Part shown: positions 1,998-33,533 of the stretch, piece by piece
Position numbering within the stretch: the first letter of the stretch is position 1
Layout of the letters: the number at the start of each line of letters is the position of its first letter
Assembly (NCBI GenBank): GCA_017444615.1
Contig: JAFSWF010000026.1
Coordinates: forward strand, 1 to 39,707
DNA length: 39,707 bases
Direction of reading: 5' to 3'
From: Paludibacteraceae bacterium
Lineage (GTDB): Bacteria; Bacteroidota; Bacteroidia; Bacteroidales; Paludibacteraceae
Notes under the pieces: model-generated
Database searches by the model: none
Told to the model about the DNA's origin: nothing
Seen by the model: the letters and a program-made list of their open reading frames with translations, nothing else
Made by a program: the position numbers and the translations under genes

Positions 1998-2034
1998 AAT
2001 TATCAATTTTCAATTATCAATTATCAATTGTCAC
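1998..2034. repeat. AT-rich 7-bp repeat between ansA and pepD
   Basis: Tandem TCAATTA/TCAATTT/TCAATTG heptamers fill the gap and run into the 3' end of ansA. The same heptamers recur at 10978-11015, 28671-28706, 29482-29512 and 33509-33533, always between same-strand genes. Confidence 0.75.
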
Positions 2035-7051: not shown

Positions 7052-8116
7052 TTATTGAATAAATCCTCCACCGATGACGAGGCCGTCTTGGTATAACACC
7101 ACGGACTGACCCGGTGTGATTCCCCAGACGGGGGCTGCGAATTGGATGCAGTCCCCGTCTATTGTTGTAACGGGTACTGCTTGGCTGCGATAACGCACTT
7201 TCGCGCAGATAGGTGCATCGCTGACGGCTGATGGCTGACGGCTGATGGCTTTGTAACGCAACTCCGTGGCATAGAGGTCATCGTAGGTGCCAAGGGTGAC
7301 GCGGTTAGTGGTAGGGTCTATATGGGTAACGAACGCGCGTTGACCAAGTGCGATACCGAGTCCTTTGCGCTGACCGATGGTGTAGTTGGCATAGCCTTGG
7401 TGAGTACCTAACACCCGTCCTTCGGCATCCACGTACGCGCCCGGGCGCACGCGTTCCGTATAATCAGGCACGTTCGCGCGCAAGAAAGTGCGGTAGTCGT
7501 TATCGGGAATGAAGCAAATCTCTTGACTCTCTTTCTTCTCCGCCAAGGTCTCATAACCATGCGCGCGCGCAATCTCGCGCACTTGGTCCTTGGTCAAACC
7601 ACCTAAGGGGAAGATCGTCCGCTTCAGATTATCCTCCGTTAGCATCCAAAGGAAATACGTTTGGTCTTTTTTTGTATCCACCGCTTCCGCTAAGTAAAGG
7701 TGTCCGTCCCGTTCGCGTATCTGTGCGTAGTGACCGGTGGCAACCCACTCGCAACCCAACTCATCTGCTACGCGTAGCATCTCCCCCCATTTGATGGTAC
7801 TATTGCAAAGCACACAGGGATTAGGTGTCCGACCGGACATGTATTCGTCAATAAAATTACCGATGACGCATCGCTTGAACGTCTCGCGAAAATCCACAAT
7901 GTGATGCTCAAAACCCATCTTCTCCGCGTTGTGTTTCGCTTCCATGATCGAATCGATGGAGCAGCACCCTTTCTCTCGCGCCAGACAGGATTCTTTGATG
8001 CTGTCAAACGTGCGGAACGTTACTCCCACAACCTCATAACCCTGCTCCAAAAGAAGCATGGCACTGACGGTGGAGTCAATGCCACCGGACATTCCCAGAA
8101 GTACGCGCTTTTTCAT
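7052..8116 (-). CDS. mnmA: tRNA-specific 2-thiouridylase
   Basis: Adds sulfur to uridine 34 of tRNA for Lys, Glu and Gln. 354 residues. ATP-pyrophosphatase P-loop SGGIDS near residue 10, catalytic cysteines in NPCVLCN and QEICFI, and the central GQRKGLGI motif are present. The start overlaps the ABC transporter stop by 4 bases (ATGA), making it the last gene of the tamL operon. Odd: near the C-terminal barrel domain an insertion RQPSAVSDAP is encoded by the 7-bp repeat at 7220-7250, which is absent from family members I recall. Confidence 0.95.
   Translation of the reverse strand: MKKRVLLGMSGGIDSTVSAMLLLEQGYEVVGVTFRTFDSIKESCLAREKGCCSIDSIMEAKHNAEKMGFEHHIVDFRETFKRCVIGNFIDEYMSGRTPNPCVLCNSTIKWGEMLRVADELGCEWVATGHYAQIRERDGHLYLAEAVDTKKDQTYFLWMLTEDNLKRTIFPLGGLTKDQVREIARAHGYETLAEKKESQEICFIPDNDYRTFLRANVPDYTERVRPGAYVDAEGRVLGTHQGYANYTIGQRKGLGIALGQRAFVTHIDPTTNRVTLGTYDDLYATELRYKAISRQPSAVSDAPICAKVRYRSQAVPVTTIDGDCIQFAAPVWGITPGQSVVLYQDGLVIGGGFIQ
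7220..7250. repeat. 7-bp repeat inside mnmA
   Basis: GCTGACG GCTGATG GCTGACG GCTGATG: four heptamers. They encode QPSAVSD on the minus strand. The same heptamers occur inside thrS (18595-18647), and relatives form the array in the thrS leader. Confidence 0.85.
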
Positions 8117-9969: not shown

Positions 9970-10982
9970 TTCTTGCGGCGATTCTCGTGAACGTATTGAA
10001 TGATTTGTCGGTCGAAGTTCTCATGCGGTGTGCAGAAATGCACGCGGATAGGCAGAGCAATCAGTCGTTTGCCTTGTGCGCGCAAACGGTCCACCAAACT
10101 GGTCGTGCGTAGTCGTTGGATATCCTTCTCTGTTGTCAGCACAAAATCAAACGCCTTCGCCTGCTCGATAATCCGGTCAATATCCTTCTCTGTGTACTGG
10201 TGATGATCAGGGTAGGCCAATAACTCCGCTTGCGGGTAGTGCAAGTGTACATAGGCCATCATATACTGCGGCTGCGCAATGCCGCATAGCACAAGGGGCG
10301 TCCCTTCCTGCTCCATAGGCGCGTACTCCAGTCCGGCAAAATGGAGTTGCTGGTAGATAGGCAGATGAAGCCGGTTATCCACCACCCGCATGTCAATCGG
10401 ACGAATAGACTCCGGACACTTGGTCACTACCACCGCGTCCGCTTTGAGCGCACGGTGCGGCAAGTCGCGTAACGTACCCCATGGTAACATGTGATCGTCT
10501 ATATACAGATGGTCATACGGCGTCAGCAACACGGTCAAACCGCATCGAATAGCGCGGTGCTGCATCGCATCATCCAGAAGAACGACATCTAATTCTGCCA
10601 CTTGTCGCTGAAGTTGCTTCACCCCTCGCACGCGGTTCTCGCATACCGCGATAGGCACGTCCGGAAAAGCACGGTGTAACTGCATCGCCTCATCCCCTAT
10701 CGTCTGAACGGTAGCTTGCGGATCTGCCATCACAAAACCATGCGAATGACGTTTGTACCCACGCGACAGCACAGCCGGGTGGTATCCGTTCGCCAGTAGT
10801 AATCGCAGCAGGTACTCCACCATAGGCGTCTTACCCGTACCGCCTACGGCGAGGTTACCTACACAGATTGTAGGCACACTCACCGTACGCGAAGGGAGGA
10901 TATGCTGGTCGTACAGCAGATGACGAATAGCCACTGCCAAGGTGTACAACCAACTAAGCGGTATGAGCAAAAAACCTTTCAA
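9966..10982 (-). CDS. lpxK: Tetraacyldisaccharide 4'-kinase
   Basis: Phosphorylates the 4' position of the lipid A precursor at the inner membrane. 338 residues. The N-terminal membrane-associated helix (FLLIPLSWLYTLAVAI) is followed by the P-loop GNLAVGGTGKTP at about 42-53. LSRGYKR, the VLLDDAMQHR segment (related to the family DDGFQHR) and the C-terminal TTEKDIQRL are also present. It sits between sppA (repeat-filled gap of 28 bases) and the MsbA-type exporter. Confidence 0.95.
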   Translation of the reverse strand: MKGFLLIPLSWLYTLAVAIRHLLYDQHILPSRTVSVPTICVGNLAVGGTGKTPMVEYLLRLLLANGYHPAVLSRGYKRHSHGFVMADPQATVQTIGDEAMQLHRAFPDVPIAVCENRVRGVKQLQRQVAELDVVLLDDAMQHRAIRCGLTVLLTPYDHLYIDDHMLPWGTLRDLPHRALKADAVVVTKCPESIRPIDMRVVDNRLHLPIYQQLHFAGLEYAPMEQEGTPLVLCGIAQPQYMMAYVHLHYPQAELLAYPDHHQYTEKDIDRIIEQAKAFDFVLTTEKDIQRLRTTSLVDRLRAQGKRLIALPIRVHFCTPHENFDRQIIQYVHENRRKK

Positions 10983-11015
10983 TTGTCAATTATCAATTGT
11001 CAATTATCAATTATC
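10978..11015. repeat. AT-rich 7-bp repeat between sppA and lpxK
   Basis: TCAATTG TCAATTA TCAATTG TCAATTA TCAATTA: five heptamers exactly filling the space between two same-strand genes. Confidence 0.85.
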
Positions 11016-13459: not shown

Positions 13460-13496
13460 GAATCGTCAATCGTCAATCGTCCAATCGTCAATTAGA
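13460..13496. repeat. 7-bp repeat between tamL and rnhB
   Basis: AATCGTC heptamers (AATCGTC x3, one with an extra C, then AATTAG) between the rnhB start and the tamL stop. Confidence 0.75.
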
Positions 13497-15823: not shown

Positions 15824-16729
15824 ATGGAGAAAATTACGAAAGCACAAGTCAAATTAGTCCGCTCTTTGCAGCAAAAAAAGTTCCGCGACGAACTCTCCCT
15901 TTTCGTCGCCGAAGGCGAAAAATGCGTCTCCGAACTGTGCAAAGCCTTCCAACTCGAAATGCTGATTATAGAAGAAGGGTTGGAGTTCAATCAGTCTCTG
16001 TTCTCGCAGGCGAAGACGGCCTATATGCTGTCTGCGAAGCGCTCCGACATCGAACAGATATCCTCCCTTCGTACACCCCAAGGCGTCATCGGAGTCTTCA
16101 AAAAGCCATCCCACAGCGAAGCGGTCTTACAGTCCGAAGGACGGTCTTACAGTGTTAACGGTCTTACAGCCGAAGGCGGTCAGCATCTAACCCTCGCGTT
16201 AGATGCTATCCAGGATCCAGGGAATTTGGGCACCATCATCCGAACCTGCGACTGGTTTGGCGTGCATGATATCTTCTGCTCGCTCGACACCGCCGACTGC
16301 TACAACCCCAAAGTGGTACAAGCCACCATGGGCGCCCTCGCCCGCGTTCGCCTCCACTATGTGGACCTCCCCAAATGGCTAAATGACCAAACAAATGGCC
16401 AAATGGTAAATGACCAAATGGTAAATATCTTCGGCACTCTCCTTGACGGCCAAAACATGTATGAAGTCTTACAACGTAGTGGTCTTACAGCGGAGCGGTC
16501 TTACAGTCCAAAGGACGGTCTAACAGCCGAAGGCGGTCACGCAGTAATCATCATGGGCAACGAAGGCAACGGCATCTCAAACGAAGTCCGCCAGTTCATC
16601 ACACATCCCATCCGCATCCCTTCCTATCAAAAAAACGTTGAGACTTCAGAAAGCCTCAACGTCTCTATCGCAACCGCCATCGTCCTCGCAGAGTTCCGGC
16701 GGTCTTACAGCGGAGCGGTCTTACAGTGA
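15824..16729 (+). CDS. SpoU (TrmH)-family RNA 2'-O-ribose methyltransferase
   Basis: S-adenosylmethionine-dependent enzyme with a knotted catalytic fold that methylates rRNA or tRNA. About 301 residues from ATG 15824; the reading frame is open further upstream, but that part overlaps the promoter. The N-terminal substrate-binding part (KLVRSLQQKK) is followed by the three SpoU motifs: LDAIQDPGNLGTIIRTCDWFG, IIMGNEGNGIS and SLNVSIATAIVLAEF. Odd: four blocks of short repeats interrupt or end the protein. They lie at about residues 100-120 (AVLQSEGRSYSVNGLTAEGG), 187-202 (NDQTNGQMVNDQMVN), 216-239 (before the second motif) and the C-terminal SYSGAVLQ, which is entirely repeat sequence. All are in loops or at the tail and keep the frame. 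Confidence 0.9.
   Translation: MEKITKAQVKLVRSLQQKKFRDELSLFVAEGEKCVSELCKAFQLEMLIIEEGLEFNQSLFSQAKTAYMLSAKRSDIEQISSLRTPQGVIGVFKKPSHSEAVLQSEGRSYSVNGLTAEGGQHLTLALDAIQDPGNLGTIIRTCDWFGVHDIFCSLDTADCYNPKVVQATMGALARVRLHYVDLPKWLNDQTNGQMVNDQMVNIFGTLLDGQNMYEVLQRSGLTAERSYSPKDGLTAEGGHAVIIMGNEGNGISNEVRQFITHPIRIPSYQKNVETSESLNVSIATAIVLAEFRRSYSGAVLQ
16122..16186. repeat. GCGGTCTTACAG repeat, block 1, inside SpoU gene
   Basis: Three GGTCTTACAG cores separated by variable GAAGGA-type linkers. In frame, before the first SpoU motif. Confidence 0.8.
16383..16433. repeat. 7-bp AATGACC/AAATGGT repeat inside SpoU gene
   Basis: Heptamers of the type AATGGCC, AAATGGT, AATGACC, in frame. Same family as the pepD insertion (908-943) but on the opposite strand. 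Confidence 0.75.
16468..16542. repeat. GCGGTCTTACAG repeat, block 2, inside SpoU gene
   Basis: Four degenerate GGTCTTACAG cores with GCGGA or GAAGGC linkers, in frame, directly before the second SpoU motif. Confidence 0.8.
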
Positions 16730-16772
16730 AACGGTCTTGCAGCGTAGCGGTCCTACAGCGCAGCGGTCTCAG
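16698..16772. repeat. GCGGTCTTACAG repeat, block 3, 3' end of SpoU gene and spacer
   Basis: Five cores of GCGGTCTTACAG (one GTCTTGCAG, one GTCCTACAG, last truncated). The first two encode the C-terminal tail of the methyltransferase. The stop codon lies within the array, which then runs up to the thrS stop codon. Confidence 0.85.
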
Positions 16773-18766
16773 TAAGCACTCATCTGTTCGCTTACCGTCT
16801 TATTGACAAACTCCGCAAACTCCTGAATGGTCATCGAACCCTTCTCCTCGGCGCCTTGCTGACGAACAGAAACCAAACCCTGCTCTGCCTCTTTCTCGCC
16901 GACGATCAGCATATACGGAATACGCTTCAGCTCGTTATCACGAATCTTACGACCTAACTTCTCATTGCGGTCGTCCACAATCACGCGAACATCCTGTTGC
17001 TCAAGCAGTTCCTTCACTTTCCAGGCGTACTCATTGCTCTTTTCGGAAATCGGCAAAACAACTGCTTGATCTGGCGTCAACCACAACGGGAACTTACCTG
17101 CCGTGTGCTCAATCAAAACGGCTACAAAACGCTCCATCGAACCAAACGGCGCTCTGTGAATCATCACAGGACGATGTTTCTGGTTATCCTCGCCCGTGTA
17201 CTCCAACTCAAACCGCTCAGGCAAGTTGTAGTCCACCTGGATAGTACCTAACTGCCAACGACGACCGATAGCATCTTTCACCATAAAGTCCAATTTCGGA
17301 CCATAGAAAGCCGCCTCACCGTACTCCACCTTTGCCGGCAAGTTCTTCTCCTTGCACGCATCGATGATAGCTTGCTCGGCCATCTCCCATACCTCGTCCG
17401 AACCAACATATTTCTCGTGATTATTCGGGTCGCGCAAGGAGATCTGTGCCTCAAAATTCTGGAAATCCAACGCCTTGAAGATAATCTCAATAATCTCCAT
17501 CACACGGATAAACTCTTGCTTCACTTGGTCTTGACGGCAGAAAATATGTGCGTCATCTTGAGTAAAAGAACGTACGCGCGTCAACCCGTGCAACTCACCG
17601 CTTTGTTCATAGCGGTAAACCGTTCCAAACTCCGCGCAGCGGAAAGGCAGATCCTTATAACTGCGAGGACTGTTCTTGAAAATGGCACAATGGTGAGGAC
17701 AGTTCATCGGTTTAAGCAGATAAACCTCACCCTCTTCCGGCGTCGTAATAGGTTGGAAACTGTCCTTGCCATAGTGATCCCAGTGACCCGAAGTGATATA
17801 CAAGTTCTTACTGCCGATATGCGGAGTGATAACTTGCTGATAGCCATAGCGTTTCTGGATTTTCTTTAAGAAATCCTCTAACCGCAGACGCAAAGCCGTT
17901 CCCTTCGGCAACCAAATCGGCAAACCTTTACCAACCATGTCGCTGAACATAAACAAATCCAGCTCTTTACCGATCTTACGGTGGTCACGTTTCTTCGCCT
18001 CTTCCAGCAACGCCAAATACTCATCCAACATCGCTTTCTTCGGGAACGAGATACCGTAAATACGCGTCATCATCGGACGCTTCTCATCGCCTCGCCAATA
18101 AGCAGCGGCACAACTAAGCACCTTCACCGCCTTAATAGGCTCTGTGCTCAATAAGTGCGGACCCTTACACAAATCCGTAAAAGCACCCTGTGTATATGTG
18201 GTAATATGTCCGTCCTCTAACTCGCTGATTAACTCGCATTTATAACTCTGACCCTTGTCGCCGAAAGCCTTCAGCGCATCTTCCTTTGCAATCGAACGTT
18301 TCTGCAGCACTTCTTTCTTAGCACGCAGCTCCATCATCTTTGCTTCAATAGCTGCAAAATCCGAGTCTTTGATCGTTACGCCCTCAGGCGGCATCACATC
18401 ATAGTAGAATCCGTTCTCGATAGCAGGTCCGATACCGAATTGAATACCCGGATACAACTCCTGCAACGCCTCGGCCATCAAGTGACTCGATGTGTGCCAA
18501 AAAGCATGCTTTGCCTCCGCATCCTCCCACTTATGCAACTTAATCTCCGCATCTTCTGTAATGGGATAATTAAGTTCTACGATGGTAAACTCATCTGACG
18601 GCTGATGGCTGACGGCTGATGGCTGATGGCTGACGGCTGATGGCTGAATACTTGCACACAGCACATCTTGTGCCAAACGACTGCTGATACTCTCAGCTAC
18701 TTGAAGCGGCGTGATTCCGCTCTCATACTCACGGACACTCCCGTCCGGAAAAGTAATTTTAATCAT
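16769..18766 (-). CDS. thrS: Threonyl-tRNA synthetase
   Basis: Charges tRNA-Thr. 665 residues, class II. Domains in order: TGS (1-75), editing domain (about 85-240, with the [11 protein letters not shown] helix), catalytic core with motif 2 ([25 protein letters not shown]) and motif 3 region, and a C-terminal anticodon domain. The zinc ligands Cys/His are in MNCPHHC and the [12 protein letters not shown] segment. Odd: the TGS domain carries a 7-residue-period insertion (QPSAVSH repeated) encoded by a 7-bp DNA repeat. Transcribed with a leader of about 340 bases. Confidence 0.96.
18595..18647. repeat. 7-bp repeat inside thrS
   Basis: Heptamers GCTGACG and GCTGATG in tandem, about seven copies. 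Because three heptamers are 21 bases, the protein shows a 7-residue period (QPSAVSH). In frame and located in the TGS domain. Confidence 0.9.
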
Positions 18767-19112
18767 ACAATTTTCTGAGCATTCAGAATTCAGCTTTCAG
18801 GTCTTCTTTCTGATAGCTGATCGCTGATAGCTGACCGCTAATCGCTGACCGCTAATCGCTGACCGCTAATCGCTAATCGCTGACCGCTAATCGCTGACCG
18901 CTAATCGCTGACCGCTAATCGCTGACCGCTAATCGCTGACCGCTAATCGCTGACCGCTAATCGCTGACCGCTAATCGCTGACCGCTAATCGCTGATAGCT
19001 GATTTCTGATAGCTTTTAAATAAACCTACAAATGTTTACGGCGCGGGGCTCACAACTGCCCTTCTGCCAAAAATCTTGATTTATCCCGCCCTCGAGGCTA
19101 AGAAATCGACTG
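18767..19112 (-). other. Long 5' leader of thrS
   Basis: From the thrS promoter to its start there are about 340 untranslated bases. The part nearest thrS is dominated by 7-bp repeats (ATTCAGA-type at 18780-18800, then 18811-19013). The distal part (19014-19105) is unique sequence with a GC-rich stretch. I see no known riboswitch and no protein of useful length. Leader-based control of thrS is possible but unproven. Confidence 0.55.
18830..18990. repeat. Tandem array of 14-bp unit GCTGACCGCTAATC (11 copies)
   Basis: Eleven copies of GCTGACCGCTAATC plus one extra half unit GCTAATC after the third copy, 161 bases in all. It is flanked on both sides by degenerate GCTGATA/GCTGATC heptamers (18811-18829, 18991-19013). 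The unit is two 7-bp words of the same family as those in thrS and mnmA. Copies are identical, so recent expansion is likely. Confidence 0.95.
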
Positions 19113-19144: not shown

Positions 19145-19369
19145 TTATTTGCAATTTTATCGTCCTAAATAATTACACCGCTATAGCGTAGCGGTCCGGA
19201 TTTTCCGGATTTTCCGCAAAATTTCTTCCATTTCTTCACATCCCTCGCTACACCCCTTCAACGCCCATTTCTGCCCCCTCTCACTACCCCTTAGCAGCCA
19301 AAACACCCCAAAAGTCCCACCCCTCAGCGCCAAATCACGGGCCATTCACGGGGCATTCACGAACCCTTA

Positions 19370-19413
19370 CCATAGGATACCCATAGGATAACCATAGGAT
19401 ACCCATAGGATAA
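19370..19413. repeat. 11-bp tandem repeat CCATAGGATAC/CCATAGGATAA
   Basis: Four exact 11-bp units whose last base alternates C, A, C, A, i.e. two copies of a 22-bp unit. Confidence 0.9.
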
Positions 19414-19445
19414 CACCCCTTTTTGTGCAAAAATATGCTTTTTAC

Positions 19446-20036: not shown

Positions 20037-20618
20037 ATGAAGTTAGTTTTTGCATCCAATAACGAACATAAATTGTCGGAAGTTCGGTCAATTATGCCGG
20101 CACACGTGGAGATTTTAAGCCTGCATGACATTGGCTTCGAAGCCGACATCGAAGAAACGGGTACCACCCTCGAAGCCAATAGTGCTATCAAAGCGCAAAC
20201 TATCCATCAATGGTTAGTCGCAAACCAGCCTAACCAACCCATCGATGGCGTCTTTGCTGATGATACGGGCTTGGAAATAGATGCTCTCAACGGTGCCCCG
20301 GGAGTCTATACCGCTCGTTGGGCGGGAGAACCGGCTGCTAACCGCCGCAAAGCTTTGCACGAACTATCCAACCAAACAAACCGCAAAGCGCAATTCCGTA
20401 CTGTCATCACCCTGATACGCGACAATAACCAACTTCAGGTTGAAGGCATCGTTCGTGGCTCTATTGCCACAGAAGAACGCGGAGAAAGAGGCTTTGGCTA
20501 TGACTCGCTCTTCATACCTGAAGGACATGAAAAAACATTTGCCGAACTACCGGCCGAAGTCAAAAATAGCATCAGTCATAGAGCAAGAGCTCTTGCTGAA
20601 CTCGTCAAAATAATCTAG
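20037..20618 (+). CDS. rdgB: Non-canonical purine NTP pyrophosphatase (dITP/XTP)
   Basis: Removes dITP and XTP from the nucleotide pool. 193 residues. Motifs FASNNEHKLSEV at the N terminus, FADDTGLEI, GFGYDSLF and SHRARAL near the end are all intact. Start at 20037 follows AAGG. Odd: QWLVANQPNQPIDG and ELSNQTNRK are extra or altered at loops and are built of AACC/AAAC words, perhaps again repeat-derived, but weakly. 28 bases upstream of the porZ start. Confidence 0.95.
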   Translation: MKLVFASNNEHKLSEVRSIMPAHVEILSLHDIGFEADIEETGTTLEANSAIKAQTIHQWLVANQPNQPIDGVFADDTGLEIDALNGAPGVYTARWAGEPAANRRKALHELSNQTNRKAQFRTVITLIRDNNQLQVEGIVRGSIATEERGERGFGYDSLFIPEGHEKTFAELPAEVKNSISHRARALAELVKII

Positions 20619-28663: not shown

Positions 28664-28670
28664 AGATTAA

Positions 28671-28706
28671 TTATCAATTGTCAATTCTCAATTATCAATT
28701 ATCAAC
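28671..28706. repeat. AT-rich 7-bp repeat between kdsA and the nucleoside kinase
   Basis: TCAATTG, TCAATTC, TCAATTA heptamers; the array covers the kdsA stop codon, so the last residues of KdsA (LIIDN) come from the repeat. Confidence 0.85.
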
Positions 28707-29482
28707 GTTTTTTCTATTTCCAAAGCTTGTTGCAAAAGGCATGCCATTTCGCTCAAACGTACTTGATTAGCGGCGTCAGAGATAGCCTGCTCAGGGTTTG
28801 GATGAGTTTCGATAAACAACCCATCTACCCCTACTGCCACCGCTGCGCGCATCAAATACGGCACCATCGCACGATTACCGCCTGTTATTCCTTCATGCGA
28901 AGAAGGTTGTTGCACCGAGTGCGTAGCGTCAAAGATAACCGGGCAACCGAAACTTCGCATCTCCACTAATGAGGTCATATCCACTACTAATCGCCCGTAT
29001 CCGAAAGATGAACCTCTTTCCGTCAGCCAAATAGTACCGTTCTGCACTGCTCCTGGCGATACTTGCTCTATCTTCTCAATCGCACCTTTCATGTCCCAGG
29101 GCGCCATGAACTGGCCTTTTTTCACATTCACAATGCGACCTGTGACGGCTGCGGCTTGCAGCAAATCGGTTTGCCTGCTCAAGAAAGCAGGTATCTGCAG
29201 CACGTCCGCCACTTCGGCCGCTAGCGCACATTGATAACTCTCATGCACATCAGTCACGATGGGTAACCCGAACTGCTCCTTCACTTCCTGCAAAATCCGC
29301 AATCCTTCCTCCATACCTACGCCCCGAGGCGAAGCAGACGTGCGGTTCGCTTTGTCGAACGAAGACTTGAAGTATAACGTAATACCCAAATCATAACAAA
29401 GACGGTTCAGCGTCTCTGCCGTCGTCATCACTACTTCTCTATTTTCTATGGCACAAGGACCTGCAATCAGGAACATCTTCAA
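28688..29482 (-). CDS. kdsA: 3-deoxy-8-phosphooctulonate synthase (KDO-8-P synthase)
   Basis: Condenses phosphoenolpyruvate and arabinose 5-phosphate for the KDO of lipopolysaccharide core. 264 residues. IAGPCAIE at the start, [60 protein letters not shown] and [14 protein letters not shown] are in order. Cys10 in AGPC, with the later His, Glu and Asp, marks it as the metal-dependent class rather than the metal-free enterobacterial class. Works in the same pathway as lpxK and msbA elsewhere in the window. Confidence 0.96.
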
Positions 29483-29512
29483 TTATTAATTATCAATTGT
29501 CAATTATCAATT
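29482..29512. repeat. AT-rich 7-bp repeat between the GH16-like gene and kdsA
   Basis: TCAATTA/TCAATTG heptamers exactly filling the gap. Confidence 0.8.
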
Positions 29513-30821
29513 AAACCGCATGGTATATCTTCGCCCATTGTACCTTCAACTTACCGGTGCCGCCTTTTTTTGCTATCGGCAACCAACTCTGAGCCAGTAG
29601 GAACATCTTCTCTTTCGGCAAACTATTCCGCAAACGAAGCACCTCTATGTTATTAACGTACCAAATCAGTTCGTCTTTGGTCCAACGAAGCGTATAAACA
29701 TGGTACATTGACCGCAGCACGCCTGTCAATTCCGCCATTTGTGCCTTCTTGCCATCCACCAAACCCATTTGATGCTGGTTGCCGTTATAGTGGTAAAGCG
29801 CCACCATCGGCTCGCCGGGAACACCTGTGCTCAAGCCAAAGAAATGATGACCGCTTCCTTGACTGCGCACTTTTGCCATAAACAGACCTTGTTCCTGTGC
29901 AAACGCCTCACGAGTGTTCATCACGTCCGATGTGTAGTCAAACACATGCTCCACAAAGCCTTTCTTCTCGTCCCAAGCAACAGCTTTAGCGCTCTCCTCG
30001 CGCGTCTCAATGTCCATACGACCATCCGCAAAGAAAGTGTTCTTGCCGCCGTTGTAGGCCTGACGCTCGTTCGTGCGCGAATGACCATCTTTCATAGCAG
30101 GGTTTGTATAACCAAATCCCGCTTTCCAATGAGCACCGGACGACATGTCATCTGCAAAAGCCGGACGGAACAACTCCGCCCAGTCAATCTTCTCTTCCCG
30201 TTGCGCGTAATAGAACTGAATATCCTCCGATTTTGCCAATGCTAAATACCGTTGCTCCGTCTTATATTCCTCCGAATGCTCCCATCGTTTAGCATCAGCC
30301 CATAACGCGTGACGAGTCTGAAAATCTTCGGTATGTACTTCTTTCTCTAACGCCTCTAACTCCTTCAACTCCGGCGAGTTAAGAACCTTAAGATAGTTCT
30401 TGTAAAAGGCAGAGCGATAGATCATATTGAACATCCGCAACTCGCTTGAATGCAGACGCTCTTTGATACTACCTATTTTCTGAAACTCCTCACTCTCGCG
30501 GAATTTCAAAAACGCTTGAAATGTCTCATTCTCCAACGCGTATTGATAGCCTTGCATCCGCATCGACGAACGCAAACGCTCGTAGGTCAGCATCTTACGC
30601 CCTTCTTCGGTCTCCTTATACTTGCGCGAAATCAATTCTTTCTTACGCGCCTGAAAATCCGAACTGTCTACTGTCTTCTTAAGCACCAGATACTCTGCCA
30701 ATTCGGGTGACTTTTCTATGCGACGCCAACGATTGACGCGTTCTATCATCGCTGACATCTCTTTCTCGAACGCTTCCGTCGAGAGCATCTTTCCTGTTAG
30801 TCGCGCGGTAAATAAATTCAT
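29511..30821 (-). CDS. Protein with duplicated helical repeat and C-terminal GH16/concanavalin-like domain
   Basis: 436 residues, no signal peptide. Residues 38-97 and 149-208 are two copies of a charged helical unit (SPELxxxxxLxKxVxxxDFQxR...), with a partial third between them. Residues about 215-436 look like a jelly-roll of the GH16/laminarinase fold: the end (VYTLRWTKDELIWYVNNIEVLRL, then KLKVQWAKIYHAV) matches the typical last strands. The ExDxxE catalytic motif expected near residues 320-350 is not there (the place reads GEPMVALYHYNG), so I doubt hydrolase activity. Lies between LOG and kdsA with 25-28-base gaps. Function unknown. Confidence 0.6.
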   Translation of the reverse strand: MNLFTARLTGKMLSTEAFEKEMSAMIERVNRWRRIEKSPELAEYLVLKKTVDSSDFQARKKELISRKYKETEEGRKMLTYERLRSSMRMQGYQYALENETFQAFLKFRESEEFQKIGSIKERLHSSELRMFNMIYRSAFYKNYLKVLNSPELKELEALEKEVHTEDFQTRHALWADAKRWEHSEEYKTEQRYLALAKSEDIQFYYAQREEKIDWAELFRPAFADDMSSGAHWKAGFGYTNPAMKDGHSRTNERQAYNGGKNTFFADGRMDIETREESAKAVAWDEKKGFVEHVFDYTSDVMNTREAFAQEQGLFMAKVRSQGSGHHFFGLSTGVPGEPMVALYHYNGNQHQMGLVDGKKAQMAELTGVLRSMYHVYTLRWTKDELIWYVNNIEVLRLRNSLPKEKMFLLAQSWLPIAKKGGTGKLKVQWAKIYHAV

Positions 30822-33508: not shown

Positions 33509-33533
33509 AATAATTGTCAATTATCAATTATCA
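33509..33533. repeat. AT-rich 7-bp repeat between the barrel gene and gyrB
   Basis: TCAATTA heptamers filling the gap up to the stop codon of the upstream gene. Confidence 0.75.

Follow-up and report, generated by a model that had tools for sequence, protein, structure and literature searches.

How does a 7-bp DNA repeat come to lie, in frame, within the genes of two otherwise complete core enzymes? The question is raised by contig JAFSWF010000026.1 of a Paludibacteraceae bacterium (GenBank assembly GCA_017444615.1), of which positions 1 to 39,707 were analysed (hereafter the window). A sequence-only reading had described GCTGACG/GCTGATG heptamers inside thrS, which encodes threonyl-tRNA synthetase (ThrRS), and inside mnmA, and had taken them for an expanding or mobile word family that is tolerated within essential proteins. 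The window is part of a draft genome (G000; 1.6 Mb, 72 contigs, 76% complete), and our genus-wide comparison covered 61 genomes of a Bacteroidales genus, mostly drafts, with one genome for each of at least 61 species. The members of this genus are uncultured gut bacteria, and the close relatives are metagenome-assembled genomes, two of them from ruminant stomachs according to their records. On balance, our analysis favours a reading in which slippage lengthens repeat words and copying carries them from locus to locus, while inside genes only those persist that keep the frame, have the stop-free orientation and lie in tolerant loops.

Both arrays were located with Tandem Repeats Finder (TRF; Table 1). 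The ThrRS array comprises 7.6 copies of a 7-bp unit with 89% matches, or 2.5 copies of a 21-bp unit with 96% matches, and lies in frame inside the TGS domain. The MnmA array comprises 4.4 copies of period 7 (87%; 100% when scored as period 14) and occupies the linker between Pfam matches to a PRC-barrel (residues 223–276) and a C-terminal barrel (residues 300–353). Together with the coordinates of the open reading frames (ORFs), these results confirm that the repeat is in frame within both genes, and both ORFs are intact, as had been claimed, and carry their domain sets. The accompanying argument that only net changes in multiples of three bases survive is also sound. Because 7 and 3 share no factor, any array free of stops yields one repeating heptapeptide whatever the frame.

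The ThrRS insert corresponds to an alignment gap at a turn of the TGS domain when compared with the solved ThrRS structure 1nyq. In an AlphaFold2 model based on 28 sequences, with a mean predicted local distance difference test score (pLDDT) of 80.8 and a predicted template modelling score of 0.70, residues 44–58 fall below pLDDT 50 and are placed between strands 35–40 and 61–63; the remaining ten-residue TGS blocks average 87–93. The model thus presents the insert as a hairpin loop of the TGS domain that is predicted to be poorly ordered. Further low-pLDDT segments were found in the conserved catalytic core (278–280, several in 316–355, and 386–398), so low confidence is not peculiar to the insert. 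The segment is absent from all 28 genus relatives readable at this turn (29 were compared, 1 being unreadable): 10 have a bare turn (e.g. SINDQIVEL), 17 a short, different insert, and G043 has another heptamer array at the same position, TCAGTAT TCAGTAT TCAGTGA TCAGAAA, of the form TCAGNNN. No such insert occurs in the 35 named outgroup ThrRS sequences (L045–L080; L051, 93% identical, was left out of this set). Relatives encoding the same segment with unrelated codons, which would have refuted the first reading, are thus missing from these 28 genus and 35 outgroup enzymes, and the segment is not ordinary ThrRS sequence. Depending on the choice of ancestral loop, the insert adds 36, 42 or 54 nucleotides, so that a length of exactly whole heptamers is one possibility among these. 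Tolerance within essential proteins, as first proposed, is well supported by the absence of the insert from readable relatives, by its position in a TGS loop of low predicted order and by the many sister cases in other enzymes described below. The comparison leaves out about 10 further genus genomes, in which ThrRS matches begin only at residue 55–78, and the named record L044 has a ThrRS ORF with a mere stub in place of the TGS domain. Part of the genus may lack most of this domain through loss.

The word GCTGAYG, which reads TCAGCCR on the sense strand of both genes, occurs 32 times in the window, compared with 10.9 times (standard deviation, SD, 3.45) in dinucleotide shuffles, none of which reached 32 in 100 trials. 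Three tandem units were found at six separate places in the whole draft genome and at none for the reversed control. Five of the six are in ORFs (one ORF being open at a contig end) and one is intergenic, so the description of this word as intergenic filler holds for a single place and was largely wrong. The large intergenic array upstream of thrS is built of sister words (Table 1). Across the genus, 7 of the 61 genomes have three-unit GCTGAYG, at 21 places in all. Twenty of these are in ORFs, some of which are cut by contig ends, and all 20 have the stop-free orientation and encode parts of a recurring heptapeptide, QPSA[VI]S[HR]; the opposite orientation would put stops in every frame. Besides ThrRS and MnmA, the word is present in CysS and in MurE-type, MurI-type, MutY-type and lipoamide dehydrogenase-type proteins of the genus. 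The two genes singled out at first are thus confirmed, but in-frame repeats are more widespread and of more than one class.

To place these arrays in a genome-wide context, we counted tandem repeats in three samples: 308,080 bases of the source genome (the window and 20 further stretches), 20 stretches of the genus, several of which surround thrS or mnmA, and 75 related loci beyond the genus, all around thrS. The source sample is biased in that the window was given and 4 of the 20 stretches were picked for holding GCTGAYG, the other 16 being unselected. Genes were called as greedy longest ORFs without curation, and two arrays consisting of N runs were removed from the counts. Period 7 accounts for 69 arrays in the source sample, whereas period 8 has 15 and period 11 has 13; in one block-shuffled control no period-7 array appeared. 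Called coding sequence encloses 31 of the 69 completely, 25 extend over a start or stop and 13 are intergenic; as 91% of the bases are called coding, the arrays are denser in non-coding DNA. Among the edge arrays, 21 of 25 show stops in all three coding-strand frames when their first unit is repeated. Within coding sequence, the 31 period-7 arrays outnumber those of periods 6, 9, 12, 15 and 21 combined (13). Coding density was 31 arrays in 279,895 coding bases of the source sample (22 in 191,740, from 47 arrays in total, without the window and the 4 selected stretches) and 31 in 349,269 coding bases of the genus stretches, so that sampled genus DNA holds about one period-7 array per 10 kb of coding sequence. 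The outgroup loci gave 5 in 1,200,564 coding bases; they nonetheless hold 25 intergenic and 10 edge arrays of period 7, and their coding arrays prefer multiples of three. Density is patchy, ranging from 0 to 4 per 10 kb in single genus stretches, and in the named loci it is mostly 0 with a few values of 2 to 3 per 10 kb. A single 20-kb stretch is a noisy measure of a genome: that of G002 has no period-7 array, yet this genome has ATGGACA arrays at 5 places. Wobble-like unit variation by transitions only was ruled out, as 44 variable columns were of transition type and 44 of transversion type.

The array-bearing proteins of the source sample, named from Pfam families, are ThrRS, MnmA, RibD, RelA/SpoT, Mfd (three arrays), PheS, a Mur ligase, MurG, a RecF/SMC-like ATPase, a 2-oxoacid ferredoxin oxidoreductase, a YgiQ-type radical SAM protein, an rRNA-methyltransferase-like protein, an M16 peptidase and some proteins without a named function (19 of the 22 ORFs with an interior array were searched, one of them having no family). 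We extracted loop regions of four genes (ThrRS, MnmA, CysS and RibD) by alignment, using the 30 best-scoring loci per gene from the roughly 55 to 60 genomes with a match. Across 30 genus loci each, the same MnmA, CysS and RibD loops carry different repeats: the 7-mers TCAGCCR, TCAGATG, ATGTACA, GGTTACG, AGCCAAC, ATGGACA and GAGAGTG, the 8-mers ATGTCGAG, the 16-mer AGCGGTCTTACAGCGC and the G/C-rich palindromes CCCTCTCCTTAGGAGAGGG; many loci of these genes have no visible repeat in the loops. Over 12 variable regions, a tandem repeat was scored in 45 of 360 loop instances, compared with 7 of 3600 codon-shuffled ones; 27 of the 45 have period 7 or 14 and 13 have period 8 or 16. A palindrome was found in 16 of 360 instances (37 of 3600 shuffled) and the 16-mer motif in 5 of 360 (6 of 3600 shuffled). 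RibD region 93–118 scores in 17 of 30 loci, while in four of the 12 regions no locus scores (0 of 30). Loops also change between close species. Loop identity was compared in eight species pairs hand-picked from a tree, and in the pair G015/G030 MnmA loop 294 is 40.5% identical with no gapped codon, compared with 86.6% outside the loops; for CysS loop 351 of the same pair the values are 47.1% (3 gapped codons) and 86.0%.

The words themselves differ by lineage. GCTGAYG arrays occur at 8 places in G059, 6 in G000, 3 in G018 and 1 in each of four genomes, and at none in 54; ATGGACA arrays occur at 8 places in G035, 6 each in G004 and G032, 5 in G002, 2 each in G026 and G030 and 1 in G000, and likewise at none in 54. 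TCAGAWN arrays are present in 12 of the 61 genomes, with most in G001 and G043. Reversed controls of all three words gave 0. In the TCAGAWN arrays of G001, TCAG is followed by AAA, AAG, ATA, ATG or AAT, in an order that shifts over 16 places. TCAGCCR loops were found in G000, G059 and G018, the three genomes richest in such arrays (these counts include the loops). A quick tree of four proteins without their loops, for the 34 genomes that have at least two of them, pairs G000 with G042 (0.973) and G059 with G018 (0.923), some other branches being weakly supported. Because G000 is not sister to the latter two, the tree suggests that TCAGCCR multiplied at least twice.

If arrays are copied among places, unrelated loci of one genome should have words in common. 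The 69 arrays of the source sample form 76 same-word pairs (77 with the N-run arrays), compared with 4.6 (SD 2.3) for random 7-mers of equal A+T content; for the 47 arrays in the 16 unselected stretches the values are 28 and 2.0 (SD 1.4, maximum 9 of 1000). When genomes are compared, the main word is common to 85 of 2666 within-genome pairs and 194 of 15,670 between-genome pairs, and shuffled labels give 40 within-genome pairs (SD 7.6, maximum 69 of 1000). Without the selected stretches these figures become 37 of 1401 and 154 of 12,964, with 18.7 (SD 4.7) under shuffling, 37 being reached in 1 of 1000 shuffles. Among loops, 28 of 1457 within-genome pairs share a 9-mer (14.4 expected, SD 3.8), as do 18 of 1007 pairs from different genes (8.9 expected; reached by 2 of 500 shuffles), and 7 of these 1007 share a 12-mer (0.84 expected). 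Five of the seven shared 12-mers are TCAGCCR, one is the TCAGAAA of G043 and one is no repeat. Genomes that carry the palindrome in a loop also have more palindromes elsewhere in their sequence when all copies, those in loops included, are counted (one-sided Mann-Whitney p = 0.001, 11 versus 17 genomes), a result that counts in favour of copying.

To account for the period-7 bias, the in-frame placement in loops and linkers, the lineage words common to different loci and the loop changes between close species, we infer that arrays grow by slippage, spread by copying between loci and are sifted by selection. On this view, the segments in ThrRS and MnmA would be copies of the lineage-specific word TCAGCCR that multiplied in the source genome. 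Slippage or unequal exchange, a known class of mutation, would extend short words into arrays with a strong preference for 7 bp. Arrays of a genome's current word set would then be copied elsewhere, a step that the sharing statistics support; the probable means is template switching or gene conversion at short matches while DNA is replicated or repaired. Within genes, the arrays seen are in frame, in the stop-free orientation and in loops or linkers, presumably as the survivors of selection, and such copies could displace prior loop content, including earlier repeat words. The repeats would need no function, the protein tolerating them as a disordered loop. A stronger version, in which active copy-in overwrites many sites with the genome's repeat vocabulary and surface loops of essential enzymes are rewritten in frame, abruptly and time and again, is one that we put forward tentatively, at somewhat less than an even chance. 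The 'expanding or mobile' character read from the sequence is thus in keeping with above-chance word sharing within genomes and with loop swaps between close species, and spread itself enters as the explanation of these patterns.

Several observations weigh against copying between loci. With one genome per species, mostly draft, no copying event or polymorphism was seen, and neither a target-site duplication nor a donor was identified. The within-genome sharing signal is carried largely by G000 and is moderate elsewhere: without this genome, 9 of 320 within-genome pairs have a word in common, compared with 4.1 (SD 2.0), a value reached by 25 of 1000 shuffles. The label shuffles ignore species relatedness, and the loop test is not independent because its genes were chosen for TCAGCCR in G000 or G059. 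Only the 45 of 360 loop instances noted above have a detected tandem repeat. Some loops are also conserved between close species, namely RibD loop 93 of G015/G030 (97.6% identical) and CysS loop 351 of G002/G004 (90.2%, compared with 87.6% outside); taken with the swapped loops of G015/G030, these indicate that contents can either switch abruptly or be inherited. Finally, genomes have words in common beyond the level of random 7-mers, so slippage-prone words could explain part of the sharing.

This last point leads to the rival that survives best, purely local slippage, in which each loop expands its own sequence under relaxed selection and shared words reflect slip-prone sequence such as the TCAG/CTGA core. 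We regard it as possible but rather unlikely. Over-represented heptameric repeats of bacteria have been attributed to polymerase slippage in the accessible text of two studies (PMC4679880, PMC4692102), half of the scored arrays of the source sample (28 of 56) vary at only one of the seven positions, words recur across genomes (the 154 of 12,964 pairs given above), and the within-genome excess is modest once G000 is removed. However, 16-bp words and G/C palindromes in the same loops are unlikely to arise afresh by slippage, within-genome sharing exceeds that of shuffled labels, and the equal-length, unrelated loops of close species resemble replacement and not growth.

Insertion of the words by a dedicated mobile element or enzyme, such as a Y1 transposase of the repetitive extragenic palindromic (REP) type or a reverse transcriptase carrying a repeat as its template, appears improbable. 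Forty of the 61 genus genomes have a REP-like palindrome, CCCTCYCY..RGRGAGGG, at 1 to 85 places each, and it is abundant in some (G059 85, G047 72, G041 47, G034 46, G000 30). Against this, Y1_Tnp was detected in 22 and RVT_1 in 14 of the 61 genomes. Both are missing from the array-bearing G004 (96% complete) and G034 (97%), as well as from the less complete G000, G001, G006 and G043, and the palindrome also occurs in genomes without a detected Y1 transposase, e.g. G000 and G034. A reverse transcriptase or Y1/RAYT (REP-associated tyrosine) transposase was rejected as a general driver, since neither is consistently present in array-bearing genomes, and searches of the 61 genomes for Y1_Tnp and RVT_1, the only enzyme families searched, yielded no driver gene.

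It is very unlikely that the heptapeptides are functional, selected protein modules: in-frame persistence in core enzymes and the retention of some repeat loops between close species, such as the RibD loop mentioned above, would fit, but different species have unrelated peptides in the same loop and the ThrRS insert is modelled at low confidence, as for disordered loops. An assembly or binning artefact, which draft assemblies and the difficulty of assembling repeats might suggest, can be practically dismissed, given that frame is kept in many genes across many separately assembled species and that the reversed controls of three heptamer words gave 0.

Other repeats of the window are listed in Table 1 with the two genes and their arrays. 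The short run directly upstream of thrS is inverted in sense relative to the adjoining CTGANNN array. This arrangement of intergenic TCAGNNN units followed by inverted CTGANNN units is seen at 18778–19010 and again at L169:61–130, where hairpins could form. Words similar to the 15/16-bp repeats downstream of thrS fill MnmA, CysS and RibD loops of some relatives. AT-rich arrays (AATTATC and kin) straddle gene ends or starts at 1998–2033, 10979–11015, 28669–28705, 29481–29513 and 33512–33533; candidate roles for such edge arrays would be a fail-safe stop or an unstructured leader. An 11-bp tandem array, CCATAGGATAC, lies at 19369–19414, upstream of a plus-strand ORF at 20037. In intergenic DNA, period-11 arrays rank next after those of period 7 in the source sample (11 versus 13) and ahead of them in the genus stretches (12 versus 6).

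Table 1. Genes and repeat features of the window (positions in the 39,707-nucleotide stretch).
Feature	Position	Strand	Basis
thrS, ThrRS, 665 residues; TGS (2–78), SAD, class II core and anticodon-binding domains	16769..18766	-	Pfam
Heptamer array, sense words CAGCCAT/CAGCCGT, ThrRS residues 40–58	18595..18647	-	TRF
mnmA, 354 residues, intact	7052..8116	-	ORF and Pfam
Heptamer array, same words as in ThrRS, MnmA residues 289–299	7220..7250	-	TRF
Intergenic array upstream of thrS, sister words CTGACCG/CTAATCG/CTGATAG	18810..19010	.	TRF
Short period-7 run TCAGAAT TCAGCTT TCAGGTC, directly upstream of thrS	18778..18800	.	TRF
Several separate 15/16-bp tandem repeats (GCGGTCTTACAGCGAA and kin), downstream of thrS	16371..16769	.	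TRF
Heptamer array AATTATC/AATTGTC over gene junction (stop and start)	1998..2033	.	
Heptamer array TCAATTG/TCAATTA over gene junction (stop and start)	10979..11015	.	
Heptamer array AATCGTC at gene start	13461..13481	.	
Heptamer array AATTATC at gene end	28669..28705	.	
Heptamer array AATTATC/AATTGTC over gene junction (stop and start)	29481..29513	.	
Heptamer array AATTATC at gene end	33512..33533	.	

The genus combines heptamer arrays with repeats inside proteins across many species, and this combination makes it possible to measure how fast, from what source and with what tolerance repeats are gained in frame in ThrRS, CysS, RibD, MnmA and other proteins together. The in-frame repeats suggest a route for rewriting protein loops. 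If copying between loci is correct, it would show that core-enzyme loops can be replaced wholesale between close species; on the stronger version given above, protein loops would evolve by templated repeat insertion instead of point mutation. Such inserts should accordingly not be taken for functional domains or assembly errors.

Dispersed heptanucleotide tandem repeats, known as short tandemly repeated repetitive or long simple sequence repeats, have a 7-bp tandem unit far above chance and are denser in non-coding DNA. The arrays of the source genome share both features (69, compared with 0 in the block-shuffled control, and a higher non-coding density). To our knowledge, such bacterial arrays have long been known without agreement on their cause. 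Selfish repeats inside proteins are best known from Rickettsia. Heptamers are the most abundant long simple sequence repeats in most genomes, and units in multiples of three are the likeliest inside genes, according to Mrazek et al. 2007 as cited in the available parts of PMC4679880 and PMC4692102. The dominance of period 7 is alike here, although long simple sequence repeats are a statistical class; unlike those cited, the coding arrays are mostly of period 7 (31, compared with 13 in multiples of three, the latter being a typical and not a defining trait).

Two published words come closer. TAACTGA direct repeats are dispersed in Beggiatoaceae, cyanobacteria and some Bacteroidetes; some lie over stop codons and some are read through inside ORFs in the stop-free orientation (PMC4679880, in part). 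They have the CTGA core of the present words. However, TAACTGA is one fixed word that in its main species lies mostly just upstream of starts, and its copies in ORFs are mostly near ORF ends or beyond regions of assigned function (PMC4679880, same parts), whereas here many words occur inside core-enzyme loops and differ by species. The GGGAATC/GGGANTN repeats of Xanthomonas and Nostoc are, in the text available, genome-wide heptamers with fixed and variable positions (PMC4692102), and in form and dispersal they resemble our arrays. TAACTGA and GGGAATC themselves were ruled out by pair counts: no TAACTGA pair occurs in 365 loci, including 308 kb of the source genome, and only 2 pairs of GGGANTN form occur in the 308-kb source sample, one of them in the window, the arrays here not being G-rich GGGANTN.

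Palindromic amphipathic repeat coding sequences are likewise translated within genes, but the sections of PMC2996958 available concern repeat proteins and surface phenotypes and not enzyme loops. Among the titles listed by our literature search, which covered few subscription papers, none concerns repeat words in Bacteroidales enzyme loops; this does not imply absence from print. The palindromic elements of the intracellular genus Rickettsia, of about 150 bp and encoding a conserved peptide, lie in frame inside many unrelated genes (PMC10969869, as far as available). In-frame placement in unrelated protein genes is also found here, in gut bacteria and with 7–16-bp tandem words and short palindromes; the ThrRS and MnmA arrays are 53 and 31 bp of tandem heptamers. 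By analogy, the arrays described here work like the Rickettsia case yet stand outside that family. What sets them apart from the known heptamers and the Rickettsia elements is the variety of words, their entry into core-enzyme loops and their turnover between species.
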